From positions 1-64,000 of the IMG/VR virus record IMGVR_UViG_3300043411_000921: a DNA stretch of 64,000 nucleotides, one strand, 5' to 3'. A model generated the notes under the pieces. The model saw only the letters and a list, made by a program, of their open reading frames with translations. It did not search any database and was not told where the DNA came from. Both the position numbers and the translations under genes were made by a program. Shown one piece after another: positions 16,547 to 59,082 of the stretch. Each line of letters begins with the position of its first letter. The stretch's first letter is position 1. This DNA is from a virus.

Positions 16547-16816
16547 TTATGCAACATATTCCCAGTAGAACAGGCTCAAGTCATGTTCAATTCCTTCGGG
16601 TGAGTAAACCCGCATGTGTTTTCCGTATTGCTGAAACCAATCAAATGTGATTCGATAATCAGCTCTTATGATTTTGCCATCACTTCTCAAAAGAACGAGT
16701 AGGTTGTTAACGGAATTGCTGCTAACGATCAAAAAGGATCCGGTTATTTGACCCTGAGCGTCTACAATCAAGGTTCCAGGCACGAAAAAACGAATGAAAG
16801 AATCAAGTTTTGTCAT
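16547..16816 (-). CDS. SH3-like small paralog (PGTL type), 89 aa
   Basis: RFFVPGTLIVDAQGQ start strand; middle NLLVLLRSDGKIIRAD; a longer C-terminal tail with aromatic residues (LSLFYWEYVA). Last gene of the array on its left side. Confidence 0.7.
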   Translation of the reverse strand: MTKLDSFIRFFVPGTLIVDAQGQITGSFLIVSSNSVNNLLVLLRSDGKIIRADYRITFDWFQQYGKHMRVYSPEGIEHDLSLFYWEYVA

Positions 16817-17052
16817 TGCTCTTCCTTTTCTGGGTAAACGATTTCAACACTGGGCCAGTTTTCTCTCAGCCAACCTTCAATCGTGGAAGCTCTAACCAAG
16901 TGAGTTTCTCCAGATAGCCACAGCGTCTTGGCGATGTAAGGTTCGTTAGGATTGTCAGCCTTGTTCCAACACAAAATCACAAAAGAGAACTTTCCGTCTT
17001 TGTGATGAAACAGTGTTCCGGCTGGGAATTTGTCTTTTGTGGTTTGGTTCAT
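16813..17052 (-). CDS. SH3-like small paralog (PGTL type), 79 aa
   Basis: DKFPAGTLFHHKDGKFSFVI, then LWLSGETHLVRAS; ends in EKEEQ, where the acidic codons double as the next gene's ribosome binding site. Confidence 0.7.
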   Translation of the reverse strand: MNQTTKDKFPAGTLFHHKDGKFSFVILCWNKADNPNEPYIAKTLWLSGETHLVRASTIEGWLRENWPSVEIVYPEKEEQ

Positions 17053-17264
17053 TGTTGAGAAGGTTTAGGTGGGAGTAGGACCAAAGTGTTGTCTTGTAAC
17101 GAACAATGATGAATGGTTGTGTAGTGATGACTCGTAACGAATCCATCGGCATTCATGATTTCTACTTCAGGGAATTGTGTCCAAGAAAGGATTAGAAAAG
17201 AAGCCATTGAACGCACAAACAATGTCCCTGGAGGAAATTGTTCTTGAATGGTCTGGGGATTCAT
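17049..17264 (-). CDS. SH3-like small paralog (PGTL type), 71 aa
   Basis: EQFPPGTLFVRSMASFLILSW, then VEIMNADGFVTSHHY and LVLLPPKPSQQ. Very close in plan to its two neighbours (QFPxGTL, then an S(F)xILxW strand). Confidence 0.7.
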   Translation of the reverse strand: MNPQTIQEQFPPGTLFVRSMASFLILSWTQFPEVEIMNADGFVTSHHYTTIHHCSLQDNTLVLLPPKPSQQ

Positions 17265-17497
17265 GTTGTGGTTGTTTGTTGGTGAGACGAAAAGATTTCA
17301 AATTGAATTGGAAACCCGCCACGGATGTCTGAATTGGGGCAAAGCGATTTTAAGGACATGCTAGATCTTTTGAATTCGATTTCACCATCCTCGAACAACA
17401 CGGTTGCCCGCTTCCCATCGCTCCTCCAGGCAAGAATCAAAACTGACCAGCAATCAGAAGACAACAATGTCCCAACAGGAAACTGATCCTTTGTCAT
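17261..17497 (-). CDS. SH3-like small paralog (PGTL type), 78 aa
   Basis: MTKDQFPVGTLLSSDCWSVL, then ILAWRSDGKRATVLFEDGEI. The ATG at 17497 is preferred over upstream codons because the previous stop is at 17500. Confidence 0.7.
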   Translation of the reverse strand: MTKDQFPVGTLLSSDCWSVLILAWRSDGKRATVLFEDGEIEFKRSSMSLKSLCPNSDIRGGFPIQFEIFSSHQQTTTT

Positions 17498-17499
17498 AA

Positions 17500-17739
17500 T
17501 CACTCCTCTGAGGTTGATGGCGGAAGAACAATTTGAGTGTTTGGCCACAAAGAGCCTTTGTGGATTATCTCGAAACTAAAAGTCATAATTCGACCACGAC
17601 CTTCCAACACCTCAGCCTGTTCCGTCTCATCGCACCAAGAAACAATCAATTCCACTGCATAGAACTTGTTCTTATTCGTGGAGTGATACAAGATCATGGT
17701 TCCAATTGGGAACCGAGCTTTCACGTCTTGAAAATTCAT
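17500..17739 (-). CDS. SH3-like small paralog (PGTL type), 79 aa
   Basis: MNFQDVKARFPIGTMILYHS start; VELIVSWCDETEQAEVLEGR in the middle; tail IVLPPSTSEE. Resembles 17049 and 17261, so these four are recent tandem duplicates. Confidence 0.7.
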   Translation of the reverse strand: MNFQDVKARFPIGTMILYHSTNKNKFYAVELIVSWCDETEQAEVLEGRGRIMTFSFEIIHKGSLWPNTQIVLPPSTSEE

Positions 17740-17748
17740 TTGGTGCTT

Positions 17749-17976
17749 CTAGTCTTCTGTGTCGGGGTTGGGTGGGATGATAGTAACATACTTGCATTCT
17801 GCTGGCCAGAAGAAAATACTCTGAACCACGCCACTCGGCCAAAGAACATCATAAGCCGAAGCAGGAGGATACTGACATGATTTTTGTTTGAGCACGACGG
17901 CAACGTATTCCCCCATGTATCCAAAAAACACGAGAGACCCAGGTGCAATGTTTTTGAGATCTTCTGGTGTTGTCAC
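17749..17976 (-). CDS. SH3-like small paralog (PGSL type), 75 aa
   Basis: DLKNIAPGSLVFFGYMGEYV start; YDVLWPSGVVQSIF last strands. GTG start overlapping the upstream TGA (GTGA). Confidence 0.65.
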   Translation of the reverse strand: MTTPEDLKNIAPGSLVFFGYMGEYVAVVLKQKSCQYPPASAYDVLWPSGVVQSIFFWPAECKYVTIIPPNPDTED

Positions 17977-18233
17977 TTTGAGTTTTCCTCATCATGATCT
18001 GGGGAATAGATTAAAAAGTCGTAAACCCTGCCCTTGAAACTTTGCAAAAAATACTTGGCCTTTATCCCAGACTTTCCACTTAAGCCAATGAAGCTAGTTG
18101 TGCCATCACAATACGTCATATCCCTCTGTTCGGTTTTTACGTTATCCAGAACAAGACAGATGATTTCCTTTGTGGTTGATAGAACAATCAACGCTCCAGG
18201 AACGATATCTTTGGGGTTCTGGGAGATGGTCAT
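17973..18233 (-). CDS. SH3-like small paralog (PGAL type), 86 aa
   Basis: MTISQNPKDIVPGALIVLST; ICLVLDNVKTEQRDMTYCDG in the middle. ATG 18233 overlaps the upstream stop by 4 nt. Confidence 0.7.
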   Translation of the reverse strand: MTISQNPKDIVPGALIVLSTTKEIICLVLDNVKTEQRDMTYCDGTTSFIGLSGKSGIKAKYFLQSFKGRVYDFLIYSPDHDEENSK

Positions 18234-18547
18234 GGCTCGTTTCCAGTTGGAAGTAGAATGTAATAGTTGTCCCAAACAATCTCATCGTAGTATCTGTTCT
18301 GGACTCCTTCGACACAAAACTTGTGTTTTTCTCCCGTTACACCGTGTAACCCTGTGAAATACACACTCCAACGAATCTCGTCGCTCAAAAAAGCCCAATC
18401 CCGGCGAGATTCGTTGGAACAATGCACATCCCCCAAAACCAAAAGGTTCACATAAGTTGATGGATCACGACTGACAAAAAGTGTTCCTGGAACAATCTGC
18501 CTCGGGTGAATACCATAGAAAGAATTCTCATACTCCGCATCTGTCAC
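18230..18547 (-). CDS. SH3-like small paralog (PGTL type), 105 aa
   Basis: HPRQIVPGTLFVSRDPSTYV, then NLLVLGDVHCSNESRRDWAF; C-terminal strand YYILLPTGNEP. A longer member with an inserted loop. Confidence 0.7.
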   Translation of the reverse strand: MTDAEYENSFYGIHPRQIVPGTLFVSRDPSTYVNLLVLGDVHCSNESRRDWAFLSDEIRWSVYFTGLHGVTGEKHKFCVEGVQNRYYDEIVWDNYYILLPTGNEP

Positions 18548-18816
18548 AAGAAAGCTTCCTTTCTGACGTAACAGATACCACTTGGTCCAAGAATCTTCAC
18601 AAAGTTTCGACCAAACGGATCTCGTTCGCCAGTTTCAAGAAACACAACAGGTTTGCCGGATGGAAGTTTTTCATTGGTTTGGAACCAATGCCTTTTCACA
18701 ATTCTATACTTACACGCTTCATCAGGACGACACTCAACTTCCCAGATTGCTGCTCCCATTGCATTCTTCACAAAGATCAGGTTGCCAACCTCAAACACAT
18801 TCTTTGCCATCGTCAT
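18544..18816 (-). CDS. SH3-like small paralog, 90 aa
   Basis: MTMAKNVFEVGNLIFVKNAM; SGKPVVFLETGERD as the central strand; FVKILGPSGICYVRKEAF as the closing pair. The ATG at 18816 (or 18810) overlaps the next gene's end by about 25 nt. Confidence 0.7.
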   Translation of the reverse strand: MTMAKNVFEVGNLIFVKNAMGAAIWEVECRPDEACKYRIVKRHWFQTNEKLPSGKPVVFLETGERDPFGRNFVKILGPSGICYVRKEAFL

Positions 18817-19090
18817 CACCTTGCTCGTTTGCGAATCTTTCCAGTTCGAGAGCTTGGTAACGGCATAGCACTTGCTCACCTCCCGGCGCAAGTAGATTCC
18901 ACACCTCACCATCTTCTTCCACTTCCAAACAAAGAAAAAGTGTGTTGGAAGGAAATTCAAGAATACCCATAGAAGCTATTTTCCCCCAGAAACGAACAGG
19001 AGTTTCAACAAACTCTTTCTTCTGGCGAACCAAATCCCCCGGCTCAAAAGAATTCCACCACCGTTTCAAATGGCTGCTACCATTGATCAT
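18791..19090 (-). CDS. SH3-like small paralog (GDLV type), 99 aa
   Basis: SFEPGDLVRQKKEFVETPVR; NTLFLCLEVEEDGEVW; LLAPGGEQVLCRYQALELE. A full three-element example. The boundary repeat at 19092 abuts its start. Confidence 0.75.
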   Translation of the reverse strand: MINGSSHLKRWWNSFEPGDLVRQKKEFVETPVRFWGKIASMGILEFPSNTLFLCLEVEEDGEVWNLLAPGGEQVLCRYQALELERFANEQGDDDGKECV

Positions 19091-19091
19091 A

Positions 19092-19110
19092 GATCGTTCC
19101 AGGATGCTTT
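19092..19110. repeat. Transcription-unit boundary repeat
   Basis: GATCGTTCCAGGATGCTTT, two bases different from the 34909 copy. On the leftward strand a CGCC-TTATT-GGCG hairpin followed by CCTTCCTTTTT lies about 40 nt earlier (19140-19165) and may terminate the preceding gene. Confidence 0.5.
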
Positions 19111-19183
19111 GTAGTGACAGGAAAACGTTTGGACGGATTGGAGTGTGTTGGGAAAAAGGAAGGCGCCAATAAGGCGTATACGG

Positions 19184-19477
19184 TCAAGGCTGTTGTAGCT
19201 CGTAGTTGTAAACCCAACCCGTGCAGCCATATGGACCCGGAACTTCAACCCAAACCGCATCTTTCCAACCGTCGTTTGTTCCGCGGTAGACAACCTTGGT
19301 CCCAGCAGGATAGAACGTGGGATTTTTGGAGTCATCTGGATCAGCGTTGAAAACAATTCGGACTTCTGGGGTGTGTCGCATTGTGGAAGTGTGGAACGGC
19401 TGGAGTTGATAAGTCTCCCCAGGAACGAGGTTGATTGGTGGTGGAGGAAAATTGGGCTTGCTGATGTTTTGAATCAT
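19184..19477 (-). CDS. SH3-domain protein, 97 aa
   Basis: A proline-rich start (PNFPPPPINLVPGETYQL) precedes an SH3b-type domain: TKVVYRGTNDGWKDAVWVEV and GCTGWVYNYEL match the RT-loop and WV-y-L ending of bacterial SH3 domains. Best anchor for the fold of the whole array. Its first 19 residues recur in the broken gene at 19926-20067. Confidence 0.8.
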   Translation of the reverse strand: MIQNISKPNFPPPPINLVPGETYQLQPFHTSTMRHTPEVRIVFNADPDDSKNPTFYPAGTKVVYRGTNDGWKDAVWVEVPGPYGCTGWVYNYELQQP

Positions 19478-19527
19478 GGTGGTGCTTCGTTGCCTTTCTG
19501 AGAATCAGTGTTGGTTCAGAGGATACT

Positions 19528-19566
19528 GTTGTAGGACTGCTAACCGTTAATCAAAAGTGCTACAAC
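19528..19566. promoter_or_regulatory. Inverted repeat upstream of rightward gene
   Basis: GTTGTAG (19528-19534) and CTACAAC (19560-19566), 25 nt apart, in the short divergent region before the rightward gene at 19588. Possible operator; no clear promoter boxes identified. Confidence 0.4.
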
Positions 19567-19587
19567 TGGATATGACTAGGTGTTACA

Positions 19588-19911
19588 ATGAATGAACGTG
19601 ATTTTCTGTATTGGTTAAATGGGTTTTTGGAACTTTCCGGTTCAGTGACGCTAAACGAAAAACAAGTGCGGGTTATCAAAGAACACATTGCTCTTGTGAT
19701 GACCAAGGTAACTCCATCTTCTGTTGGATCTCCCACAAACGACTCTTGGCTCGCGGGGCACTTTGTTTCGGGTAAAGATTGGATGAATCCTCCTAACACA
19801 TTTGATCAATGTGACAAGTGCAAAAAGCCCTGCTCAGAAGCAGGCGGAATGTGTAGAAAGTGCATGGAAACTACCAATATATCTAACGTCAAGACCCATT
19901 TGTCTTGTTGA
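19588..19911 (+). CDS. Conserved small phage protein, 107 aa
   Basis: Rightward gene inside a leftward array. MNERDFLYWLNGFLELSGSV and QVRVIKEHIALVMTKVT match a pattern I recognise from many phage genomes (xYWLQGFFEL..LxxxQ..iIxxHL) of unknown function. The C-terminal CDKCKKPC..GGMCRKC is a zinc-finger-like module. Its orientation suggests late insertion between array genes. Confidence 0.75.
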   Translation: MNERDFLYWLNGFLELSGSVTLNEKQVRVIKEHIALVMTKVTPSSVGSPTNDSWLAGHFVSGKDWMNPPNTFDQCDKCKKPCSEAGGMCRKCMETTNISNVKTHLSC

Positions 19912-19925
19912 GAACTTTCGAGTGG

Positions 19926-20067
19926 TTATTCAACACTCTGATCTTTTTTCTGAATGAGAGTGATTTCACGATAGAAGACTGGCCGTGTGTTTCCATCGCT
20001 CCCCGAACCAATGATCAAGGTTGATGGGTGGAGGAGGAAGATTGGGCCTACTGATGTTCTGAGTCAT
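19926..20067 (-). pseudogene. Chimeric remnant of two array genes
   Basis: From ATG 20067 the frame reads MTQNISRPNLPPPPINL, a copy of the start of the gene at 19184. It then shifts frame and, in another frame, continues as IIGSGSDGNTRPVFYREITL..Q to a TAA near 19926, which matches the C terminus of the gene at 20064 (GVARPLFSYEFTLVQKG). The joined product would be only 33 residues. It still keeps the ATGA overlap with its neighbour. Direct evidence of recombination between array members. Confidence 0.75.
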
Positions 20068-20372
20068 GTTGTTGTCTTATTACCTTTCTGAACGAGGGTG
20101 AATTCGTAGGAAAACAGTGGTCTAGCAACTCCAACCCCATCCAGACCAATGAACAGATGGGATTCTCCAGAAAAGTTTTCAATCAAATCAACAACAATCA
20201 AGAAAGAATTTCTTGACAATCCCTCCTTGATTTTAGCGAATTTCCACCAATTTCCGGTTTGAGAGATCAAACTAGCGGTGGTGCCGGTGGATTTGTCAAA
20301 CAGGGTAGCTGATTCCTTGAGCGGATATTTTCTCGTATATTGAATCAAATCACCTATCTTCGTCATAGACAT
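20064..20372 (-). CDS. SH3-like small paralog (GDLI type), 102 aa
   Basis: MSMTKIGDLIQYTRKYPLKE; NSFLIVVDLIENFSGE as the middle strand; SYEFTLVQKGNKTTT at the end. Its C terminus recurs in the chimeric remnant downstream. Confidence 0.7.
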   Translation of the reverse strand: MSMTKIGDLIQYTRKYPLKESATLFDKSTGTTASLISQTGNWWKFAKIKEGLSRNSFLIVVDLIENFSGESHLFIGLDGVGVARPLFSYEFTLVQKGNKTTT

Positions 20373-20704
20373 TCTTCACCATTCCCTCTCTGGATCAATG
20401 TGAGTTCATCTGCACCAAACGGTTTATACTCTCCACTTGGGAAAAAACAAACAAACAGTTCGAGTTTGTCATCAAGGAAGTAAGAGTCAACAATAACAGC
20501 ACTCAAAGAACTTGACACACTAGCAGCAGCATTAGAAAACCTGTAAAACCAAAACAAACCATTGTTTGAACGTGGCAAAGTAGTTCTGTTTTGTGTTGGC
20601 GATGCCGAAACGTGGCGACGTACTTTGTAAGATGTGCGCCGTGCTACAACCAAGTCACCAATCTCAAAAAATTCCCCCGCGTTTTTCTTTGTTTTCAAAG
20701 ACAT
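20363..20704 (-). CDS. SH3-like small paralog (GDLV type), 113 aa
   Basis: FFEIGDLVVARRTSYKVRR; central SSLSAVIVDSYFLDD; closing FVCFFPSGEYKPFGADELTL. Ends GNGEECL, overlapping the next start. Confidence 0.7.
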   Translation of the reverse strand: MSLKTKKNAGEFFEIGDLVVARRTSYKVRRHVSASPTQNRTTLPRSNNGLFWFYRFSNAAASVSSSLSAVIVDSYFLDDKLELFVCFFPSGEYKPFGADELTLIQRGNGEECL

Positions 20705-21084
20705 TCCTTCGGATTTCCTTCTGCAAGAACTTCATAGAGTTTGTTGGCTCTTGGAGAAAAAACACAAACACCTTGTTCAACATCCAACAAGACGCACCAA
20801 AAACTTTGTGTTTTTGGGTTGAACTTGACATCCATGCAGATGAATTTGTCCTCTGCGCTTAGGATTACAAGGTTCATTCGCCTTTTTGGACCATCATACT
20901 CTAGGCCGCAATTCGATGGATGCAAAACATATCGCCACCTCCCCTCTGTTTCCTCAACAACGGTAAAGTCGTTATTCTGATCATTGGTCACTTCGAAGAA
21001 ACCTCTTGTTCCCCTGTAACCGTCGCGCACATCAGGAATAAAACCAATCAAGTCCCCAAGTTTCATGGAAGACAACTGTTTCAC
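20695..21084 (-). CDS. SH3-like small paralog (GDLI type), 129 aa
   Basis: MKLGDLIGFIPDVRDGYRG near the start, RMNLVILSAEDKFICMD in the middle, ending NPKECL like its neighbour (ECL). Four-nt overlap with the membrane protein gene upstream. Confidence 0.7.
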   Translation of the reverse strand: MKQLSSMKLGDLIGFIPDVRDGYRGTRGFFEVTNDQNNDFTVVEETEGRWRYVLHPSNCGLEYDGPKRRMNLVILSAEDKFICMDVKFNPKTQSFWCVLLDVEQGVCVFSPRANKLYEVLAEGNPKECL

Positions 21085-21371
21085 TGCTTTTCTGCTTGAA
21101 TACGGCTGATCGAGTCTGCCTTCTCAATAGCCAAAACAGACAACACAGCAAAAGCGACAAAAAAGAGGAAAACAATTTCTCGAAACAACTCACCAGGCGG
21201 GGAAGGGAGAATGGGAATGGAGGCGAGGATTGCAAACGCGGTTAGGATATGACAAACAAACCCGGCAAAACCAAGCCCGTTCCAGAACTTGAACCAATCA
21301 TACTTGAGAGGAGTTGGCGGCACCTTTGGAGGTTGCCAAGGAAAACGATAAGGGTGCGTGTTGTTGCTCAT
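21081..21371 (-). CDS. Two-pass small membrane protein, 96 aa
   Basis: Begins MSNNTHPYRFPWQPPKVPPT; hydrophobic segments at about 30-52 and 62-82; ends in a charged helix (IEKADSISRIQAEKQ). The -10 box TATGGT lies 6 nt before the ATG. Not an SH3-like protein; function unknown. Confidence 0.75.
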   Translation of the reverse strand: MSNNTHPYRFPWQPPKVPPTPLKYDWFKFWNGLGFAGFVCHILTAFAILASIPILPSPPGELFREIVFLFFVAFAVLSVLAIEKADSISRIQAEKQ

Positions 21372-21377
21372 ACCCAA

Positions 21378-21407
21378 ACCATACCACAGACCAATAACCC
21401 TTGGCAA
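21378..21407 (-). promoter_or_regulatory. Sigma70-type promoter, leaderless arrangement
   Basis: Leftward TTGCCA (21402-21407), 18-bp spacer, TATGGT (21378-21383), 6 nt before the ATG at 21371. Confidence 0.65.
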
Positions 21408-21430
21408 CAACAAAATACAACAGGCCACAA

Positions 21431-21449
21431 ATCGCTCCAGGAGGCTTTT
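21431..21449. repeat. Transcription-unit boundary repeat
   Basis: ATCGCTCCAGGAGGCTTTT, identical to 261-279. Here it forms a CCAGGA-AAAGCC-TCCTGG hairpin and sits between the gene ending at 21545 and the promoter at 21378. Confidence 0.55.
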
Positions 21450-21544
21450 CCTGGCATGAGAATATCTCGGATGGATTGGGGGTCGTTGAAAAGATTTGGC
21501 GGCACTGCTGAGGCTTGTGGAGCGACTGAGAGGGCGTTGGAATG

Positions 21545-21826
21545 TCAGAGGAAGGTTGAGTTGGGATCATGGAACGAGAACCCAGGAACTCTTTTCTGAA
21601 ACTGGATGCAAACGCGGCTGTTGGAATCATTTGGACTAACAACAGAAAAGAAAAGATGTGTGCGATTGTCAAACTCTTCATCAAACACCTCAAATAAAAA
21701 CTTGGTCAAGCAGATATGTTTGCCATCTTCTTGTTCGATCAGCAAGCCGGGGAAGAAGTCATCTTTGGTGAAGAAAGTGATATGGGTTAGTGAGTCTTTG
21801 AGAGAAAGGAAATTGGGTTTGGTCAT
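21545..21826 (-). CDS. SH3-like small paralog (PGLL type), 93 aa
   Basis: KDDFFPGLLIEQEDGKHICL; THLFFSVVSPNDSNSRVCI as the closing strands. Last gene of its block before the boundary repeat. Confidence 0.65.
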   Translation of the reverse strand: MTKPNFLSLKDSLTHITFFTKDDFFPGLLIEQEDGKHICLTKFLFEVFDEEFDNRTHLFFSVVSPNDSNSRVCIQFQKRVPGFSFHDPNSTFL

Positions 21827-22062
21827 GTCTCGCTTGGTTTTTCTGCCACTGCTAAAAGTTCGAGGAAAGTGGAATCAATGGTTTTTGTCTCACCTGCAAG
21901 ATTGCAAATTTTCAAACTTTGGTACGGTTTTGCTCCTGGATAGCAGACCGTGTTTGACACGATCTCAACAACAATTCCTTTTTTGAGGTCACTTTTATCA
22001 GTGATTATTCTGATCTTTACCAAATCACCGACACAGAATTTTCTGGATGTTGTGTTATTCAT
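21823..22062 (-). CDS. SH3-like small paralog (GDLV type), 79 aa
   Basis: RKFCVGDLVKIRIITDKSDL; KKGIVVEIVSNTVCYPG; LKICNLAGETKTIDSTFLEL. ATG at 22062 chosen near the upstream stop at 22055. Confidence 0.7.
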   Translation of the reverse strand: MNNTTSRKFCVGDLVKIRIITDKSDLKKGIVVEIVSNTVCYPGAKPYQSLKICNLAGETKTIDSTFLELLAVAEKPSET

Positions 22063-22285
22063 CGGATGTGTCAGTTTCAACGAGGGTCAACCTGGATTCA
22101 AACAACCAGATTTGTTGTCCTGTGGTTGAGTCAAGAAGGCAGACGAATCCTGCCTTTTCCTCACCGCCACCAAGGTTCTTCATGTACCGAACCTGGAGAA
22201 CAATACCAGCGCCTTTGTACGAATATTCATCGTCACCAACCCCACGAACCAAATCGCCGGGTTTGAACTTTGATTCAGATTTCAT
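22055..22285 (-). CDS. SH3-like small paralog (GDLV type), 76 aa
   Basis: KFKPGDLVRGVGDDEYSYKG; AGIVLQVRYMKN; VCLLDSTTGQQIWLFESRL. Strongly resembles 21823 in spacing. Confidence 0.7.
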   Translation of the reverse strand: MKSESKFKPGDLVRGVGDDEYSYKGAGIVLQVRYMKNLGGGEEKAGFVCLLDSTTGQQIWLFESRLTLVETDTSDE

Positions 22286-22599
22286 GCCTCCTCGGATTCT
22301 TTCGTCAATTCCCAGTTTTTATGGAACAGTCTGCCATCATAGAAGTCTGAGTCGCTGAACCTTGTAAAAATCTCTCCGTGGTCTGGATGCAGCCATCGAA
22401 ACTTACAACCAATCCTGTCAACACTGAGAAGAACACACAACTCTCCCGGAACAATCATCACTGATCTACTGGCAGGTAGTTTGGTGTTTCGCCCGCCAAA
22501 AGCAACTCCAACACGAAATTCTTGCCCTTCACGCTCGTAACGAACATGATTCAGACAGCGGAACAATCTACCAACCTTGTAAACTGAATTCTTGATCAT
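22282..22599 (-). CDS. SH3-like small paralog, 105 aa
   Basis: YKVGRLFRCLNHVRYEREG; central PGELCVLLSVDRIGCK; closing FRWLHPDHGEIFTRFSDSD. Start overlaps the stop of the frameshifted gene (ATGA). Confidence 0.7.
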   Translation of the reverse strand: MIKNSVYKVGRLFRCLNHVRYEREGQEFRVGVAFGGRNTKLPASRSVMIVPGELCVLLSVDRIGCKFRWLHPDHGEIFTRFSDSDFYDGRLFHKNWELTKESEEA

Positions 22600-22846
22600 G
22601 TTTGGTTCCCTTCCTTCTCTCCCCTGGAAATCCTCTTAAACCATGTTTCTGTGCCTTTGCAGGTTTCACTGGCGAAATACAACGAAATCTTAACTTTTCC
22701 GAGTTCTGGGCTCAAGAGCGTCGCCTGAGCGGTTTTGATTTCATGTTCGTCGTTTAAGATGGAAGAAAGAACAACAACCCGATTCCCCTTCTTGAGTTCG
22801 AGGAAACAAGTTCATACAACTCACCAGGAACAAGATCAAAAATCAT
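22596..22846 (-). pseudogene. SH3-like array member with 1-nt deletion
   Basis: ATG 22846 reads MIFDLVPGELYELV and then terminates after about 30 codons. One base missing near 22803 (GTTTCC for GTTTTCC) restores the frame LELKKGNRVVVLSSILNDEH and TLLSPELGKVKIS through to TGA at 22596. That stop overlaps the next ATG in the normal way, so only the single deletion disrupts an otherwise complete gene. Confidence 0.75.
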
Positions 22847-23118
22847 AGATTCTTCTCCTCGTCTACAACAACAAGGATGAGTGAAAGCGGTTCCTTGTGT
22901 GCTTGAAAAAGAATCACTTGCCCGTGTTTGGGAGAAAGGAATGTGTATTCGTCGTACAACCCATAACCCTCTTCGACAACTCTTTGGCCCATGAAAACAA
23001 GCAACTCGTCTGCCTCCAACCGACATTGTTTTCCTCCCCCGTGCGTGTAGGCGAGGTTGTAGTAGTCGGGATCCAAACGATAAAGCTGGCCTGGAATGGG
23101 AGTTGGTTCACTCATCAT
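22843..23118 (-). CDS. SH3-like small paralog (GQLYRL type), 91 aa
   Basis: PTPIPGQLYRLDPDYYNLAY; ADELLVFMGQRVVEEG; YTFLSPKHGQVILFQAHKE. Classic three-strand signature. Confidence 0.75.
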   Translation of the reverse strand: MMSEPTPIPGQLYRLDPDYYNLAYTHGGGKQCRLEADELLVFMGQRVVEEGYGLYDEYTFLSPKHGQVILFQAHKEPLSLILVVVDEEKNL

Positions 23119-23374
23119 TTACTTCTTCAAACGGGTGCAGTCCCAGTGAAAAGTCATCTGGTTTTCTAAACAGAAAAGTACACTCCACAGTCTCATCAAA
23201 CTTTGGGCTTAGAAAAACAACTGTCAGAACTGGATGGTCGTAATTCTCAGACAGGAACACAAGACACTCGCCCTCGTTCAATTTAACTTCCTTCCCACTG
23301 TGAGTTAGGTTCCAATCCAACGCCCAGCCAAGTTTGTAAAGCCTCCCCAAAACCAAATTGGTTTTCTTAGTCAT
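23108..23374 (-). CDS. SH3-like small paralog (GRLYKL type), 88 aa
   Basis: MTKKTNLVLGRLYKLGWAL; EGECLVFLSENYDHPV; VVFLSPKFDETVECTF. Close paralog of 22843. ATG 23374. Confidence 0.75.
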   Translation of the reverse strand: MTKKTNLVLGRLYKLGWALDWNLTHSGKEVKLNEGECLVFLSENYDHPVLTVVFLSPKFDETVECTFLFRKPDDFSLGLHPFEEVNDE

Positions 23375-23414
23375 ACTCCAACCACACAACTTTCATCGCG
23401 GCTCATTTGCTTGC

Positions 23415-23750
23415 TTAAACCTTCGTCAGAACAAAAACAACCTGACTTGCTCGGGTGCAAAAATACCACACCCCAACGACTGGATCCAGCAGAGTCAACT
23501 CTACCATCCCATTGTCCAACATGTCAATCCCCGTCACCACAAAGTTTTTGGAAAATGCAACACGACTGACACTAACTTTCTCCAGGTAGGCCGCAAAGGG
23601 ATCAAGGCGCCGACAAGAAATTCTCGTTACCCAACAGCGATCAACAACCTTCTCCCACCCACACAAATCTCCAGGGCTTAGAACATCAACTTGATTTTTG
23701 CTGTTCATCAGTTGAATTTGGAACTGCTGCTTTTCGTTGCCGCGATTCAT
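23415..23750 (-). CDS. SH3-like small paralog, 111 aa
   Basis: VDVLSPGDLCGWEKVVDR; FSKNFVVTGIDMLDNG; ELTLLDPVVGVWYFCTRA. The N-terminal 25 residues are an extra polar segment (MNRGNEKQQFQIQLMNSK). Confidence 0.7.
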   Translation of the reverse strand: MNRGNEKQQFQIQLMNSKNQVDVLSPGDLCGWEKVVDRCWVTRISCRRLDPFAAYLEKVSVSRVAFSKNFVVTGIDMLDNGMVELTLLDPVVGVWYFCTRASQVVFVLTKV

Positions 23751-23992
23751 CCAGTAACCTCTTCGAAAAAAGAGCAAAGAAATTCCAAATGAACACGACC
23801 ATGAGGTTGGAAAAATCCAACCTTGCCGTGTTCTGGGGAAAGAAACATTCGGTCAACACCACTCTTGGGCCACGCACTGCCCCCCAGATATACCAACAAA
23901 TCTCCTTTGATGAATGTTTTTGGTTTTTCGCCGGAAGAAGTCACCGAACGAAGAACAATATATAACTTCCCGGTCTTAGAATCACTGATCAT
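23747..23992 (-). CDS. SH3-like small paralog (GKLYIV type), 81 aa
   Basis: SKTGKLYIVLRSVTSSGEK; IKGDLLVYLGGSAWPKSG; MFLSPEHGKVGFFQPHGR. Shares the LSPxHGxV-FxQ ending with 22843. Confidence 0.75.
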   Translation of the reverse strand: MISDSKTGKLYIVLRSVTSSGEKPKTFIKGDLLVYLGGSAWPKSGVDRMFLSPEHGKVGFFQPHGRVHLEFLCSFFEEVTG

Positions 23993-24272
23993 CGTCTGGG
24001 ATCCTCTCGAAGAAAAGTTCCCAATAGTCCGAACTCAATGCCATGTGAACCAAGCCGCCTTGGTCCTTCGATACAAAAGACAGAGCTTTGAATTCCTTTC
24101 CCCAAGACACATACGACTTGAAGCCCACAAAAACAAGAACATCGCCCACTTTGGCAATTTTTGCCAAAAGTTGATCGACTGTGGCATCGTTCCAATCAAC
24201 CTTATCACTAATCCAATAGTAACTTGTGATGAGGCGATATAAACCTCCTGGAACGAAGTAGTCAGTCATCAT
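23982..24272 (-). CDS. SH3-like small paralog (GGLYRL type), 96 aa
   Basis: YFVPGGLYRLITSYYWISDK; VGDVLVFVGFKSYVSWG; LSFVSKDQGGLVHMALSS. ATG 24272 or 24269. Confidence 0.7.
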   Translation of the reverse strand: MMTDYFVPGGLYRLITSYYWISDKVDWNDATVDQLLAKIAKVGDVLVFVGFKSYVSWGKEFKALSFVSKDQGGLVHMALSSDYWELFFERIPDDDQ

Positions 24273-24579
24273 CACCACAACTCACAACTGGAACGAAGCT
24301 GTGTGAAAAGACCTCCTCCAGCCCTTCCTTGTTGGAATACAAGGAGGTGAGTGAAGTTTTTCCGTGGATTGGATCAAGAAAGTAAATTCGGTAAAACATG
24401 GGGTGTTTGTTATCGGAATCCAAATCGACACCAAGTCCCATAAAAACAACATTGCCACCTGTAACGGATTCGTAACAATCCATCCTGCGTGATTCGTCAA
24501 ATTCCCAACCATAATACACAGACACTTTCTGGGTGTAAACAAGTAACGTTCCGATCTCTGGGAATGTGTTGGCGTTCAT
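24262..24579 (-). CDS. SH3-like small paralog (GTLL type), 105 aa
   Basis: FPEIGTLLVYTQKVSVYYG; GGNVVFMGLGVDLDSD; IYFLDPIHGKTSLTSLYSN. Ends in GDDD. Confidence 0.75.
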   Translation of the reverse strand: MNANTFPEIGTLLVYTQKVSVYYGWEFDESRRMDCYESVTGGNVVFMGLGVDLDSDNKHPMFYRIYFLDPIHGKTSLTSLYSNKEGLEEVFSHSFVPVVSCGDDD

Positions 24580-25302: not shown

Positions 25303-25304
25303 GA

Positions 25305-25887: not shown

Positions 25888-25909
25888 CGTTTTTCACCAT
25901 TCACATCCG

Positions 25910-27629: not shown

Positions 27630-27636
27630 AACATAC

Positions 27637-27665: not shown

Positions 27666-27687
27666 CACCCTTCCGGTCAAAACCCAA

Positions 27688-28089: not shown

Positions 28090-28090
28090 A

Positions 28091-29024: not shown

Positions 29025-29028
29025 CGTT

Positions 29029-48889: not shown

Positions 48890-48893
48890 CGTT

Positions 48894-49142: not shown

Positions 49143-49146
49143 TGTT

Positions 49147-53492: not shown

Positions 53493-54944
53493 CTAATCGT
53501 CTACCAGCCTCATGCCCTCTTCGGCTGGATCAAAGTTGATTGGAAGCTTTGTGCTGGAATTGTAGATTGCTTTGGCGAACCTGTTTGGCAGGTTATCAGA
53601 GTATGATCCAAACAAAATCCAACCTTTCATATCCACGCCTCGAAGATCGGCTCCAACAAACCTAGCTCCAACAAACCCAGCACTTCCTTCCGTTTCAATT
53701 CCTCTCATGTCAGCATTTGTGAAGTTGCAATTGGAGAATGAGCCGCCAGAAATCTTCGTGCCAACAAACTTGGCATTCTCAAAACTGGTGAAGGAACTCA
53801 ACGTGTCCATGAAAGAACAGTGACGAATTTCCGTGTTTGAGAAATCCGATTCGTTGTTGGTTGCTCGAACAAAGTTGCAATGAGCGAAATTTGCACCACG
53901 AGCTTTGGTCTGAAAAAGCTGCGAACCTTCAAAGAAACATTCATAACAACTCGCTCCAACAAGTTTGGCCTTTGAAAAGTTCGAATTGGTGAAAACGACA
54001 TTGCTAAGTTTTGCATTGATGAACTTGGCACTTCCGAGGCGTGAGAAAATCATCTTGGAGTTTTTGATGGTTGAATTGGTGAAGTTGGTTCCGAGCACCA
54101 TTGCATTCGTTAGTTGCAAGTCATCAATCACTTGGTTAGAGTAGTCATCGCCAGAAATGGCCGGTTGAGGTTTTGAAAAGAGTTTGTGGGCTGGGTAATA
54201 TGATCCCTCCATATCCTGCTTCTCAATCACATCAACAATTTCCAGCCGCGTTGTGTTGAAAAACACTGCTTGGTTTGGTTCGTTGGGGTGGATGATTCCA
54301 GCATCAACGTTATCAACCACTCCATCATATCCAAGCATCTTCCAGAGAATGTAAGACCATCGTGTTGTTGGGCCGCCGCCCTCTTTCCCTGGAGGCAGCG
54401 GATTCGTTACTTCTTCCCCATCTTCATCTTCTCCAACCTTCGTCCCAGACAGAATCCTTGTGAGATCCCAAATCTTTTTGCCCGGCGAATCAGAAATCCC
54501 CGACAAATCCCAGAAACTTTTTGGTTTCCCCATTGCCTCATCAATAACAGCCGGATCAAATCCAGCAGCCTTCAATTTTTCTCCGTCTTGCTTCAACTGC
54601 TCTTCTGTATACCTCGACAAATCCAAAAGCCTTGCTTCTGGTTTTGGTTTGAAGATGATCATGAAGGGTCTTTCAGCCGCGAAGGAACTGATTGATTCGT
54701 CGATGAGTGGATAGGCGTAGAAGCCAACAGGAGTGTTATACGAGTTTTTGAGATAGAGTCCCATCTTTGGGAACTTGGAGAAGTGGATGAACAGATTCAT
54801 GTCCACACGATTTTGTTGTTCGTATGCGATCAACCTCTCAGTCCACCTGGGAAGTCGTGACTTCGTTTCTCTTTTGAATCTGGTTGCCTCAAGAACGATT
54901 AGAGCTTTGAGAAGAGTTTGAAGGTTGTGTGGCTGGGAAGGCAT
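53493..54944 (-). CDS. Fusion of a phage N-terminal domain to pentapeptide repeats
   Basis: A 483-residue protein. It starts with the leader helix LQTLLKALIVLEATRFKRE. Residues about 50-250 carry patterns I recognise from large phage proteins (LFIHFSKFPKMGLYLKNSYN, TPVGFYAYPL, FAAERPFMIIF and later LGYDGVVDN, GIIHPNEPNQAVFF). Residues about 285-440 are loose pentapeptides, and the protein ends with the FDPAEEGMRLV cap of the early pentapeptide genes. Likely a virion-associated or effector protein; an ADP-ribosyltransferase-like fold for the first domain is a guess. Confidence 0.7.
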   Translation of the reverse strand: MPSQPHNLQTLLKALIVLEATRFKRETKSRLPRWTERLIAYEQQNRVDMNLFIHFSKFPKMGLYLKNSYNTPVGFYAYPLIDESISSFAAERPFMIIFKPKPEARLLDLSRYTEEQLKQDGEKLKAAGFDPAVIDEAMGKPKSFWDLSGISDSPGKKIWDLTRILSGTKVGEDEDGEEVTNPLPPGKEGGGPTTRWSYILWKMLGYDGVVDNVDAGIIHPNEPNQAVFFNTTRLEIVDVIEKQDMEGSYYPAHKLFSKPQPAISGDDYSNQVIDDLQLTNAMVLGTNFTNSTIKNSKMIFSRLGSAKFINAKLSNVVFTNSNFSKAKLVGASCYECFFEGSQLFQTKARGANFAHCNFVRATNNESDFSNTEIRHCSFMDTLSSFTSFENAKFVGTKISGGSFSNCNFTNADMRGIETEGSAGFVGARFVGADLRGVDMKGWILFGSYSDNLPNRFAKAIYNSSTKLPINFDPAEEGMRLVDD

Positions 54945-54970: not shown

Positions 54971-55297
54971 TTACTGCTCGGCAAAAGACAAATCAACCTC
55001 CTCTAACCAACACGATCTTAACGAAGAAATGAACTGGTTTTCCATCCCAACCCTCAACAAATTCTTTTCATCTGCCATGAAACACCAACGAAAAATTTCA
55101 CCCGATCCCGAAATCAAAAACGACTGCAATGGACCAGTGTGATCCATCACTGTGGGCGGAATGCAAACCAAGAGATTCCTTTCCAAATCAAGCTCAAAGG
55201 CTTGGAAGAACCTTTTTCCTTTTATTTCAACACAGAGGCGATAAAGCTTTCCAACTTCGGGAAGATTGTGTGGTATTTCTTTTTCATTCAACATCAC
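54971..55297 (-). CDS. SH3-like small paralog (GKLYRL type), 108 aa
   Basis: HNLPEVGKLYRLCVEIKGKR; LERNLLVCIPPTVMDH; SFLISGSGEIFRWCFMADEK. Clearly duplicated from 55284 (same layout; many identical residues). Confidence 0.8.
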   Translation of the reverse strand: MMLNEKEIPHNLPEVGKLYRLCVEIKGKRFFQAFELDLERNLLVCIPPTVMDHTGPLQSFLISGSGEIFRWCFMADEKNLLRVGMENQFISSLRSCWLEEVDLSFAEQ

Positions 55298-55604
55298 AAA
55301 TCACCTCTTCCAACCAAGCGAGAAAATTCGACGAGTATAGCTGTGCTTTTACCGCCACCCTCAACAACATATCTTTATTTGACAAGTGGCACCAACGAAA
55401 AACCTCACCCGTACCCGAAACCAAAAACGACTGCACTGGTCCCATACCATCTCTTATTGTTGGTGGAATACCAACCAAGAGATTCCTTTCTAAATCAAGC
55501 CCATAGGCGCTGAAGGGCCTTTTTCCTCCTCTTTTAACACAGAGTCGATAAAGCTTTCCAACTTCGGGAAGATTGTGCAGTTGTTCATTGTCACTCAACA
55601 TCAC
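55284..55604 (-). CDS. SH3-like small paralog (GKLYRL type), 106 aa
   Basis: HNLPEVGKLYRLCVKRGGKR; LERNLLVGIPPTIRDG; SFLVSGTGEVFRWCHLSNKD. Pair with 54971; the latest duplication visible in the arrays. Confidence 0.8.
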   Translation of the reverse strand: MMLSDNEQLHNLPEVGKLYRLCVKRGGKRPFSAYGLDLERNLLVGIPPTIRDGMGPVQSFLVSGTGEVFRWCHLSNKDMLLRVAVKAQLYSSNFLAWLEEVICDVE

Positions 55605-55896
55605 AAACCACCTCCTCTAACCACATCAAATTATATTCTTTCGGACGCAAACCTAAACCAAACAAAACAACTGAATGGTGAGTACCACTCACTAGAAAAA
55701 AATCGTAGGGCTGGCGAATATGCTCTCTTTTTAGCTTTGGCAAGCAAAGTAAGAATGCTCCCTCGGGACAGAACTTAAACTCGCCTCCTCCATAAAGACT
55801 ATTTTGGCTTTTGAAAGCATTGAGCGTCAAGTGCTTAAGAGGAGAACCCATAAGACGATACAATTTTCCAGGGATTGGTCTGTGGCTCTCGTTCAC
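55591..55896 (-). CDS. SH3-like small paralog (GKLYRL type), 101 aa
   Basis: RPIPGKLYRLMGSPLKHLTL; GAFLLCLPKLKREHI; FFLVSGTHHSVVLFGLGLR. Ends MWLEEVVCDVE like its neighbour. Confidence 0.75.
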   Translation of the reverse strand: MNESHRPIPGKLYRLMGSPLKHLTLNAFKSQNSLYGGGEFKFCPEGAFLLCLPKLKREHIRQPYDFFLVSGTHHSVVLFGLGLRPKEYNLMWLEEVVCDVE

Positions 55897-56177
55897 TATT
55901 CTTCCTCCTCTTCCACTTTTTCAAGCCAAACAGTCAAGTCGGGGTTGTAAAGATGGTACCGCCCGACAACCCCAGGCTCAAAAGCAACAAGATTGGGGCA
56001 ACTCACTTGTTCACCACTCCCAGCAATCAAATACTCGCTGTTTCCAAGATAACAAACGGTTTTTCCATTCGCCATTTTCATTATAGTTGCGCGGGTGAAG
56101 CGATGGCTGGGCAGGCTGCGCACATGATAGAGATAGCCAATGACTGGGTTGCTTGCAAAAACTTCAGGTTGATTCAT
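55896..56177 (-). CDS. SH3-like small paralog (GYLYHV type), 93 aa
   Basis: SNPVIGYLYHVRSLPSHRFT; GKTVCYLGNSEYLIAGSGEQ; LTVWLEKVEEEEE. ATG 56177. Confidence 0.7.
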   Translation of the reverse strand: MNQPEVFASNPVIGYLYHVRSLPSHRFTRATIMKMANGKTVCYLGNSEYLIAGSGEQVSCPNLVAFEPGVVGRYHLYNPDLTVWLEKVEEEEE

Positions 56178-56520
56178 AATCCACTTCCACTTCAACCAAC
56201 CAAACCCGTGCGCCTTCAGCATCTTCGTAAGTCTTGGGTTGATAACCTGCTGGAAGTACCTTCAAACGCCAAGTGAAGATTTCGCCCGAATCCGAACAAA
56301 CAAAGGTTGGCATAAGCCAATTTTCCTCCTCTGTTTTTCTCGGCTCAGTGCAAAGAAGAAAGGCTTTTTGATCATCAAAGATGAAATAATGCCCGAATCG
56401 TCGCGCTTTTGGGTGATAGGATTTGATTCGCTTGTCAATGTGTCTGTTGGCAAGACGATACAACTTTCCAGGAATAGGATCGGTTGCAACAACCTTGTTT
56501 TTCTCCTTATTCATCGTCAT
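56164..56520 (-). CDS. SH3-like small paralog (GKLYRL type), 118 aa
   Basis: DPIPGKLYRLANRHIDKRIK; DQKAFLLCTEPRKTEEEN; FVCSDSGEIFTWRLKVLPAG. ATG 56520 or 56514. Confidence 0.75.
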   Translation of the reverse strand: MTMNKEKNKVVATDPIPGKLYRLANRHIDKRIKSYHPKARRFGHYFIFDDQKAFLLCTEPRKTEEENWLMPTFVCSDSGEIFTWRLKVLPAGYQPKTYEDAEGARVWLVEVEVDYEST

Positions 56521-56803
56521 TCTCCACTTCTTCGAGGTAATCCACATAATTTTTTCTGGGCATTGCAACGGTGACACCACCCCAGTCAAACTTGTTACCG
56601 TAAGGGGTTATGAAAACAGGAATGAGATACCCACCATCATCTCTGATTTCACAACAAAGAATTGGGGTTGTTTTCCTGTCCAATGAAAAGGAATTGGTGT
56701 TGACATCAACCAGTGTCAAAACTGGTTGACTGTAAGGGTGTTTGATCTCCCGGAGCCAATACAGTTTTCCCGCTTCGGGATCTTTGTAGAGTGGTGTTGT
56801 CAT
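56507..56803 (-). CDS. SH3-like small paralog (GKLYWL type), 98 aa
   Basis: DPEAGKLYWLREIKHPYSQP; TTPILCCEIRDDGG; PVFITPYGNKFDWGGVTVAM. Start near the boundary of a small gap. Confidence 0.75.
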   Translation of the reverse strand: MTTPLYKDPEAGKLYWLREIKHPYSQPVLTLVDVNTNSFSLDRKTTPILCCEIRDDGGYLIPVFITPYGNKFDWGGVTVAMPRKNYVDYLEEVENDDE

Positions 56804-56820
56804 GTTGGGTGTTCCCGTTC

Positions 56821-57135
56821 CTACTCTGCTGTGAGAATGGGAGTGCTGTCAACCACAGAAGAATAAACCAGAATCTTTTTGCCTTCTGGTGTCAAGAGCA
56901 ACACCATTTTCTTGCCCCATAATTCGGGATGGTCAAGAACAACAAACAAGTCCGTTCTGTTAAAGAAAAATTGACTGGCTGAAAGATAGTCAATCGTAGA
57001 CATCTTTGGGTTGTCGGGATCAAAGGGCCGCCCACTCGCTCTTGCCCAAAACTCATCATCCAATTCTCCCACCAGCCGAACAAGCTGTCCGATCTCAGCC
57101 GGTTTCCTGTACGAGTTCTTTCTGAGAATTTGCAT
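56821..57135 (-). CDS. SH3-like small paralog (GQLVRL type), 104 aa
   Basis: PAEIGQLVRLVGELDDEFWA; RTDLFVVLDHPELWG; VLLLTPEGKKILVYSSVVDS. ATG 57135 lies inside the next gene's end. Confidence 0.75.
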   Translation of the reverse strand: MQILRKNSYRKPAEIGQLVRLVGELDDEFWARASGRPFDPDNPKMSTIDYLSASQFFFNRTDLFVVLDHPELWGKKMVLLLTPEGKKILVYSSVVDSTPILTAE

Positions 57136-57460
57136 GGATCGTCCTTTCTTCATCAAGATCATCCGCGTTTACTAAAATCACACTTCCATCTGGAAAAAGC
57201 AAGGAAATGAAGTTGGTTCGGAATTTTTTTTTTGTTGGGTGGGTTTGAATGACAAGGAAGTAATCAAATGTGTGGCGCCCAACAACGGGGTCAATTCCTT
57301 CCCTGCTCGGCACTACGATCCACTTGTCGTTAACGTAATTGTAGATGCGGTAGTGACCCTTGTCACGATCTGAAAGTGTTGGAAGAATGCGGACTTCTCG
57401 TTCGTTGTGATTGCCCCATTCATCCTTGAAACAAACCAAGTCACCAACACGAATATTCAT
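57095..57460 (-). CDS. SH3-like small paralog (GDLV type), 121 aa
   Basis: MNIRVGDLVCFKDEWGNHNE; HTFDYFLVIQTHPTKK; ISLLFPDGSVILVNADDLDE. ATGA overlap with 57457. Confidence 0.75.
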   Translation of the reverse strand: MNIRVGDLVCFKDEWGNHNEREVRILPTLSDRDKGHYRIYNYVNDKWIVVPSREGIDPVVGRHTFDYFLVIQTHPTKKKFRTNFISLLFPDGSVILVNADDLDEERTIHANSQKELVQETG

Positions 57461-57678
57461 AATATCGGATTCCTTTCTGCCAGAACGATCAAATCAGAAA
57501 AAACTGGAATTATCAATCCGTTTGGGGTTAGGAGATAAACCCGATGTGGGGGGGCGGTAGCAAGAACCAAAAACAAAGCACCCTTTGCGGAATAAGCCCA
57601 GTCATGTTTGACGTGACTCCAGAGTGCTATCTCAGGCTTTAACTTCACCAAATCACTGGGCTCAAACTCCATTTTCAT
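57457..57678 (-). CDS. SH3-like small paralog (SDLV type), 73 aa
   Basis: EFEPSDLVKLKPEIALWSHV; KGALFLVLATAPPHR; VYLLTPNGLIIPVFSDLIVL. ATG 57678 or 57672 preferred over 57690, which lies well inside the upstream gene. Confidence 0.7.
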   Translation of the reverse strand: MKMEFEPSDLVKLKPEIALWSHVKHDWAYSAKGALFLVLATAPPHRVYLLTPNGLIIPVFSDLIVLAERNPIL

Positions 57679-57967
57679 CTTTTCTTTCATTCATGGTGAT
57701 AGCGGTTTGCCAATCAAAGAGCGATGCTCTACATGAAACTTTGATTCCATCTGGTGATAGGAGCAAGACAAAACCAAACTCCTCATACTTCAACACAAGG
57801 AACCAAGAAACATATTTGGCTTTGAAAAAGCACAACCTTCGAGGCGCGTCAACTTCGTAAAGATGATTCCTCATTTCGCAATGAGTTGTTGGGGTGCTGT
57901 TAGAAATTCGATCTGGTCGCACCAGTGTTCCCGGTTTTACCTTTCCACCAAAGAAATCATCAGTCAT
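57662..57967 (-). CDS. SH3-like small paralog (PGTLV type), 101 aa
   Basis: GGKVKPGTLVRPDRISNST; YVSWFLVLKYEEFG; FVLLLSPDGIKVSCRASLFD. Confidence 0.75.
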   Translation of the reverse strand: MTDDFFGGKVKPGTLVRPDRISNSTPTTHCEMRNHLYEVDAPRRLCFFKAKYVSWFLVLKYEEFGFVLLLSPDGIKVSCRASLFDWQTAITMNERKDENGV

Positions 57968-58200
57968 GGTAATGGAGCTTTCTTAAAGTCTTCGCGGATT
58001 GATTTGACTATTCGACCATCAGGGCAAACCAAGATTACTCCTGGGAATGAGCGGCTGCCGCAAACGATTGTAACGAATTCGGCAACGAGAAACATTGAGT
58101 CTTCTGGATAAGAGCAGCCCTCGGTGTTGGGACGTTGATAGTCTATCAACAACGCAAGCTGAGGGTCCAGAATCGCCAAATCTCCCACTTTCAAGGTCAT
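57964..58200 (-). CDS. SH3-like small paralog (GDLA type), 78 aa
   Basis: MTLKVGDLAILDPQLALLID; EDSMFLVAEFVTIV; VILVCPDGRIVKSIREDFKK. Confidence 0.75.
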   Translation of the reverse strand: MTLKVGDLAILDPQLALLIDYQRPNTEGCSYPEDSMFLVAEFVTIVCGSRSFPGVILVCPDGRIVKSIREDFKKAPLP

Positions 58201-58472
58201 TCAACAACCTTTGCTTTCCTGAACTTGTCAGTACGAACATGAATGACTTTACCCATTGGATCTACCAGTTCCAAATAACTCACATCTTGTTGCAAAATAT
58301 TGCACCAGCGATAAAAACACCTGCAAATGAGAAATTTTGAATCGTGACGATACACGCCGATTGGTTTTTCCATGTTGTAGATCGCGGTGATAAAAAACCT
58401 GCCCGGCCCAATATTTCGCGCTGCTTCAACCAAGTCCCCTGGATTGAGGATCGACGAATCCAAATTTCTCAT
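58197..58472 (-). CDS. SH3-like small paralog (GDLV type), 91 aa
   Basis: SILNPGDLVEAARNIGPGRF; KFLICRCFYRWCN; YLELVDPMGKVIHVRTDKFR. Two clustered Cys. Confidence 0.75.
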   Translation of the reverse strand: MRNLDSSILNPGDLVEAARNIGPGRFFITAIYNMEKPIGVYRHDSKFLICRCFYRWCNILQQDVSYLELVDPMGKVIHVRTDKFRKAKVVE

Positions 58473-58750
58473 GTTGCAACCTTCCTGAAGAGGTGGGGCA
58501 AAGCCATTGAAGCTTTTCCGTCAGGACAAAGGATCTTGACAACCAACAAATCCTTAGTGGAAAAATCAGGATTTGAGACGAAAAAACAATCCAGGACAAG
58601 AAACAGGGAATTCATTGGATACGTTCGAGCGACATAATCAACAACCCTTCCTCCAGCACAATTCAGGTCGAGAAAGTAGAAGGATTTTTCACTTGGATTA
58701 AAGGTAATGGGCTCTAGCAAATCTTCAGGAAAAAATGGGATGGATGTCAT
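58469..58750 (-). CDS. SH3-like small paralog (EDLL type), 93 aa
   Basis: PFFPEDLLEPITFNPSEKSF; MNSLFLVLDCFFVSN; VVKILCPDGKASMALPHLFR. Confidence 0.75.
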   Translation of the reverse strand: MTSIPFFPEDLLEPITFNPSEKSFYFLDLNCAGGRVVDYVARTYPMNSLFLVLDCFFVSNPDFSTKDLLVVKILCPDGKASMALPHLFRKVAT

Positions 58751-59082
58751 GGTTCTTCTGAATCCTCGGGGGTCAATTTTACCGGAACTAGAAACTCTTG
58801 TTCTTCAACGGTGTATCTGTCAAGGATGCGGATTTTGCCTTCCGGGTCAACAACCTTCAACACTTCAACCGAACGAGCCCACAGAGCAGGTCTAACATCC
58901 ATAACCGACAAAACCAAGAACATGGAATCCTTTCGAGCAGTATAGAGCTTGTCCTCCTTCCAACAAAAGAAACTCATAAATCCAGAGTCAATTCCATTGT
59001 TTCGTGCATTCTCGGGGACTTGAGCCAAGTAGGGTTTGTCCAAAACCGTTTCTCTTATGATTTCTGCAAACTCATATTTCAT
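58747..59082 (-). CDS. SH3-like small paralog, 111 aa
   Basis: YEFAEIIRETVLDKPYLAQV is an extra N-terminal helix; then FMSFFCWKEDKLYTARKDS, MFLVLSVMDVRPA and LKVVDPEGKIRILDRYTVEE. Overlaps the phosphatase stop by 4 nt. Confidence 0.75.
   Translation of the reverse strand: MKYEFAEIIRETVLDKPYLAQVPENARNNGIDSGFMSFFCWKEDKLYTARKDSMFLVLSVMDVRPALWARSVEVLKVVDPEGKIRILDRYTVEEQEFLVPVKLTPEDSEEP

Follow-up and report, generated by a model that had tools for sequence, protein, structure and literature searches.

Arrays of Small Proteins with a Predicted SH3-Fold Core in a Myovirus-Like Phage and Its Relatives

The first 64,000 bases of the virus record IMGVR_UViG_3300043411_000921 (here termed the window), a 241,399-base record of a myovirus-like phage, carry dense arrays of small genes on the minus strand. 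We propose that these encode a multigene family of this phage lineage, made up of standalone SH3-fold binders that act in the cytosol and diversify against host factors, a reading with putative targets that we place just on the probable side. Using a gene set that combined a codon-usage gene caller with gap filling, we counted 87 small open reading frames (ORFs) in five blocks (16.5-33.4, 34.5-35.6, 42.4-45.7, 48.1-49.5, and 55.0-59.1 kb), which together cover about 24.5 kb. Their products are 60-131 amino acids (aa) long, save one frameshifted member of 52 aa, and 30 of the 143 successive minus-strand gene junctions in this gene set show 4-base overlaps, as in translationally coupled operons.

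Membership of the array genes in one family

A jackhmmer search from a single seed within this phage alone joined nine members, all from Array III, at E<1e-3, and sequences from relatives were therefore needed. Searches of viral contigs with the terminase retrieved G006, a relative of 260 kb with identities of mostly 40-80% in its large genes, and searches with MnmA and a subgroup of G006 array proteins likewise gave relatives; those with the RNA ligase, a phosphoesterase, and one array gene gave no close relatives from these contigs. With a hidden Markov model (HMM) built from G006 alone, the window array genes outscored three control sets: non-array genes of matched length (p=2e-6), their own reversed copies (p=2e-9), and shuffled ones (p=1e-19); 25% of the array genes, versus none of 730 shuffled copies, exceeded 5 bits. 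This bears out the first-pass annotation of the window in its claim of a family sharing strand motifs. Iteration over the relatives gathered 143 ORFs and zero decoys, with 45 members from G014, 41 from G006, 30 from G012, 16 from this phage, and 11 from two others. In a smaller database of called genes with reversed and shuffled decoys, 29, 39, and 51 ORFs of this phage joined at E<=0.005, 0.05, and 0.5, where decoys numbered about 0, 0, and 3, respectively.

Because hand-picked subtype alignments proved noisy (one such group of 13 HPxHGK-type members gave an hhalign probability of 83% to the family), we adopted position-based, control-checked blocks, in which eight consecutive array genes were aligned and compared by hhalign with the family of the relatives. 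Seventy percent of the array blocks scored above 20, as against 0 of 120 control blocks (top control, 17), and these block-wise profiles tie most of 21.5-35, 42.9-49, and 55.6-59 kb to the family. On the strength of the decoys and control blocks, we rejected the possibility that the arrays are chance ORFs. A few array ORFs are unlike SH3 proteins; among them, 21081-21428 has a strong membrane-like segment, and 27327-27680 resembles a different conserved gene.

As judged from these sequence comparisons, the paralogy is real, for about 40 members and not 90. The first-pass annotation had described about ninety paralogs in three arrays; the dense arrays stand, but since about 40 members join under decoy control and 17.2-22 kb is unlinked, "ninety" is a count of ORFs, and we reject it as a count of proven paralogs. 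Profile searches likewise join several of the subtypes but not all of array I. The extent originally assigned, 16547-59082, is confirmed in part for the arrays within it, but the family also occurs, through candidate members, at 14.0-14.9 kb, at 60.6 kb, and, beyond the window, at 155.3 and 233.1 kb of the record.

Elsewhere in the record, look-alikes sharing the family motifs are present at 162.5-165.0, 186.6-188.2, and 236.0 kb. The first two are clusters of small genes (162492-165029, minus strand; 186564-188222, plus strand) sharing the start and end motifs of the array genes, and the 162-kb cluster was the top-scoring control in the eight-gene-block comparison. The third is a lone SH3-like gene (236043-236423), found in the same slot in G001, G002, G005, and G010 (E of 0.005-0.13), and is possibly an ancestral single-copy member.

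Predicted fold of the core subtype

The core of Array III is a local expansion of SH3-fold paralogs that are 29-48% identical to member 45485-45745. Structures were predicted with AlphaFold2 (AF2) for this core-type representative, from 98 aligned members, and for one HPxHGK member. The core model (predicted local distance difference test [pLDDT], 90.5; predicted template modeling score [pTM], 0.78) has strands at residues 7-10, 15-18, 28-32, 37-40, 52-57, and 63-67, followed by a short helix (69-74) and a final strand (78-80), in the strand order of SH3 domains. All 50 PDB matches listed by Foldseek are SH3 domains or SH3-containing proteins, with probabilities mostly of 0.97-1.00 and E-values of only about 0.01; endolysin SH3 domains are among them. 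The family profile retrieved the yeast Pex13 SH3 domain in a profile-to-PDB search (E=0.0011-0.0024), and this domain is also the top structural match. Further, the Pfam bacterial SH3 family SH3_3 matches 7 of 98 members (best E, 3.6e-5). These observations predict that the core subtype adopts an SH3 barrel. The HPxHGK model, of fair confidence, is all-beta (pLDDT, 80; pTM, 0.69). Member 19184, which the first-pass annotation had taken as its SH3b example, lacks a Pfam match at E<0.1 and reaches the family only at E=0.025.

With the SH3 superfamily (the Pex13p SH3, Src-family SH3, and SH3_3/SH3_2 domains), the array proteins share the predicted fold and strand order, and the profile alignment covers the stretch from the second barrel half through a GxxG-aromatic motif to the last strand. 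They differ in being standalone proteins of 60-130 aa encoded in large phage arrays, in lacking the ALYDY and P-x-NY motifs, and in almost lacking the WW pair. A small standalone SH3-fold phage protein is also known from the lysis modules of Drexlerviridae (DUF7244), where it is present in a single copy beside lysis genes (PMC13164509), whereas here dozens of diversified copies lie away from recognized lysis genes.

Turnover and loop diversification in relatives

Three relatives, G006, G012, and G014, have arrays of their own, with 30-45 members in corresponding genomic places, which comparison of the sequences suggests to be independent expansions. The genes between the arrays have orthologs in G006 (RNA ligase, 52% identity; MnmA, 60%; deaminase, 55%), while blastp matches of the array genes in G006 are almost wholly lacking. 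One slot is bounded by the deaminase gene and the ortholog of 41863-42345; this phage has 13 small ORFs there, of which at least 9 belong to the family, and the relatives have no more than about two SH3-like genes. In the slot that follows MnmA, G006 and other near relatives have 2-7 SH3-like genes, and no SH3-like gene was recognized there in the more distant G007, L087, and L088. In a tree, members group by genome (35 label changes, compared with 54 on shuffling; none of 200 shuffles was as low), and a few weakly supported groups mix members of this phage (G000), G006, and G012. Because this tree, built from 77 columns, is poorly resolved, its single branches are not to be trusted, but the overall pattern is probably that of an ancestral set of subtypes followed by independent expansions. 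The nearest paralog is a neighbor far above chance in G014 and G012 and is not so in this phage. A short match in a Halieaceae metagenome-assembled genome, from a scan of genome contigs, was set aside, as the genes called on that contig piece include no family member.

Tandem paralogs whose copy number varies between relatives are familiar from the multigene families of asfarviruses and other large eukaryotic DNA viruses; the phage arrays are alike in these respects and differ in host and fold. In T4-like phages, anti-defense genes undergo segmental amplification (tifA, PMC9391042; SegB, PMC13096335). Those cases also involve a small accessory gene changing copy number under host pressure and offer a possible starting step, but the copies are recent and near-identical, whereas the arrays consist of old and diverged copies at fixed genomic slots. 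The literature that we searched describes the single standalone SH3 proteins and the anti-defense amplifications cited above and no such arrays. No array-family match was found in PHROGs. Among 50,697 phage genomes, single-sequence tblastn, which is insensitive to diverged copies, gave no match when a window member was the query and no match of weight with a G006 member. Thus, the earlier statement that no phage is known with so many such genes holds in the collections searched, except that uncultivated IMG/VR relatives carry comparable arrays. Although the SH3 fold is known, the array family appears to be new.

Loop diversification was seen in 23 members from G006 and G012, in which a conserved first strand and a conserved second half surround a loop of 20-36 residues that changes in length and sequence. 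This loop sits at the position of the RT loop; SH3 domains bind their partners chiefly through the RT and n-Src loops. Its GC content is 59%, versus 33-36% in the flanks, and its entropy is 2.5 bits, versus 0.8 and 1.3. Over 73 close pairs of this subgroup, the ratio of nonsynonymous to synonymous differences (pN/pS) is 1.24 for the loop, as against 0.53 for the core; in gap-free comparison, pN exceeds pS in the loop in all seven close pairs of equal loop length, which share members and are not independent. In G006, 18 of 27 GC islands fall inside family genes, which make up 4.9% of the genome, nearly all of these islands lying some 100 bases into the SH3 gene. GC-rich hypervariable loops at one fixed position in AT-rich SH3 paralogs were observed at 49.5-51 and 110-131 kb of G006, at 24 and 41 kb of G012, and at L110:10004-10617; the loop DNA is G-rich in one subgroup and C-rich in another.

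A conserved scaffold with a hypervariable part recalls the diversity-generating retroelements (DGRs), but here the variation is in length and GC rich rather than in A-directed point changes. A reverse transcriptase (PF00078) was absent from the six records searched, in which controls were positive, and we reject a DGR mechanism on that basis. It is conceivable, though we hold it only tentatively, that the loops on the conserved SH3 scaffold are repeatedly exchanged, independently of a reverse transcriptase, for new and often GC-rich sequence, yielding dozens of binders per lineage as a counterpart of antibody-like or DGR diversification.

Proposed role, alternatives, and genomic setting

The arrays are neighbored by genes for a T4-type RNA ligase, a small P-loop protein, MnmA, a deaminase, phosphoesterases, and others. 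This setting is an accessory region and not a structural one; portal, terminase, and large structural-type genes lie apart from it, from about 87 kb onward in the record. Because the arrays sit among accessory genes such as the RNA ligase and a tRNA-modifying enzyme, we regard the binding of host factors, for their neutralization or for takeover or counterdefense, as the most likely use. A membrane-like segment is present in just 8 of the 87 array ORFs, and most members are therefore probably cytoplasmic. A conserved core, a fast-changing loop at the RT position, and dozens of copies turning over fit binders pressed to change partner. Each array protein would use its loops to bind a different partner; such partners might be host proteins, such as defense, toxin, or translation factors, and tandem duplication with loop replacement would then give a repertoire that tracks changing hosts.

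Several observations weigh against this proposal. The loop diversification was measured in relatives, the paralogs in the window being too diverged for pN/pS, and the window's own arrays have no GC islands; the loop data are therefore supporting evidence from relatives. In the eight-gene-block comparison, 17.2-22 kb showed no link to the family. The HPxHGK model has no PDB match at E<0.2, so the SH3 fold originally suggested for the arrays is upheld for the core subtype and is a candidate fold for this one. The groove motifs of PxxP-binding SH3 domains are nearly missing from the 143 members (ALYDY, 0; WW, 4; P-x-NY, 0). No member matches a known anti-defense family, and PADLOC, whose library covers defense rather than counterdefense, returned one stray match. 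Of the first-pass suggestion of host-takeover or anti-defense proteins under diversifying selection, diversification is thus backed by the loops of the relatives, whereas takeover or anti-defense remains conjectural.

Ribosome- and polymerase-binding proteins commonly contain small SH3-like barrels, and the array products could instead be KOW- or Tudor-like binders of RNA, ribosomes, or RNA polymerase that reprogram host translation or transcription. One member weakly matches the SPT5 KOWx family (E=0.016), a list of PDB matches includes SPT5 at a low rank (E=1.3), and neighboring genes act on tRNA or RNA. Nevertheless, both by structure and by profile, the top matches are SH3 domains of the protein-binding or SH3b type and not KOW, and the mean net charge of the members (-2.4) is unlike that of typical nucleic-acid binders; we regard this alternative as unlikely but worth weighing. 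The array layout, lineage-specific turnover, and small acidic products also recall immunity-gene arrays, as would be expected of a polyimmunity-like store in which each protein is the antidote to one host toxin (of a toxin-antitoxin [TA] system, a polymorphic toxin system, or an abortive-infection effector). Phages can amplify TA-inhibitor genes (PMC9391042, PMC13096335), but the matches to defense models are limited to the single stray one, and this version, which is a special case of the favored explanation, seems rather unlikely to us. That the arrays are mostly neutral duplicates, kept by frequent recombination and without separate functions, would accord with the high turnover, the many members of only marginal similarity, and the frameshifted copy at 44987-45228, which may reflect decay or an assembly error. 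This is improbable given a core pN/pS of about 0.5 while that of the loops exceeds 1, the open frames, coding signal, and tight overlaps, and the retention of arrays in several relatives. Cell wall-binding SH3b modules aiding lysis or entry, as proposed for the Drexlerviridae protein, would account for the SH3_3 and endolysin matches, but few membrane-like segments, no lysis gene recognized among the neighbors scanned, and dozens of copies occupying slots next to RNA and nucleotide genes make them quite improbable. Finally, capsids can be decorated by many paralogous small proteins, but with the large structural-type, portal, and terminase genes elsewhere, a virion or decoration role is highly improbable.

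The array features and the two marker genes between them are collected in Table 1.

Table 1. Coordinates of array blocks, selected members, and marker genes in the window
Feature	Position	Strand	Evidence or remark
Candidate members upstream of array I (14039, 14543; 14233 weaker)	14039-14917	-	E of 0.005, 0.014, and 5.8
Array I, 52 small ORFs	16547-33359	-	Linked to SH3 family firmly at 28.3-33.4 kb, moderately at 21.5-26 kb, not at 17.2-22 kb
Array I members at strict E	29029-29355, 30029-30406, 30349-30618, 31576-31971, 31923-32270, 33045-33359	-	E of 6e-11 to 6e-7, zero decoys
HPxHGK subtype (24262 and neighbors)	22843-27334	-	Most members weakly related to family; no clear fold match
T4 RNA ligase 1 family protein	33346-34482	-	Pfam PF09511, E=3e-18; 52% identical to G006 protein; ortholog-bearing marker between arrays
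Three small ORFs after RNA ligase gene, candidate members	34549-35551	-	E of 0.03-1.2
Array III, 13 ORFs (core, 43376-45745)	42358-45745	-	jackhmmer, alignment, AF2/Foldseek, tree clustering
Frameshifted Array III member	44987-45228 (45070-45228 plus 44987-45118)	-	Break in T run; two HMM matches in different frames; frame translation
Array III member, 86 aa, modeled as SH3 barrel	45485-45745	-	AF2 and Foldseek
MnmA-like tRNA 2-thiouridylase	46561-47616	-	PF03054, E=6e-61; synteny; marks slot where relatives have 0-7 SH3-like genes
Block beside mnmA, five ORFs	48095-49488	-	48095, 48355, 48599, and 48894 join family (E of 3e-7 to 2e-4, decoy controlled)
Block V, 14 small ORFs	54971-59082	-	57095-57460 joins (E=6e-7); rest marginal; eight-gene blocks score 28-33 against family
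Member outside the originally assigned extent	60578-60916	-	E=1.3e-5, decoy controlled

Consensus promoters and terminators are no commoner in 16.0-35.6 kb than in shuffled sequence. The rest of the record, outside the window, encodes a T4-like terminase, and gene-by-gene comparison with the relatives revealed a conserved set of large genes. The phage-encoded MnmA-like gene is kept across the relatives, and an amidoligase-family protein (PF12224; 35733-37049 of the window) is conserved in G006. Several pentapeptide-repeat or pentapeptide-like proteins are encoded at 1531-10427 and 53493-54764 of the window; together with a gene at 230 kb they form a set of paralogs, and the relative L110 also has many proteins of this type. 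By eye, candidates for an adenylosuccinate synthetase-like protein of the PurA/PurZ type (185398-186567) and a GroEL-type chaperonin-like protein (217541-219280) were noted elsewhere in the record.

If the proposed explanation is correct, a phage lineage would be spending roughly a tenth of its genome on a single diversifying binding fold. Such arrays would constitute a ready-made natural collection of small binders against bacterial proteins, as well as a system for asking how phages build and lose counterhost repertoires. Loop replacement in the relatives further raises the testable question of how new protein loops arise.

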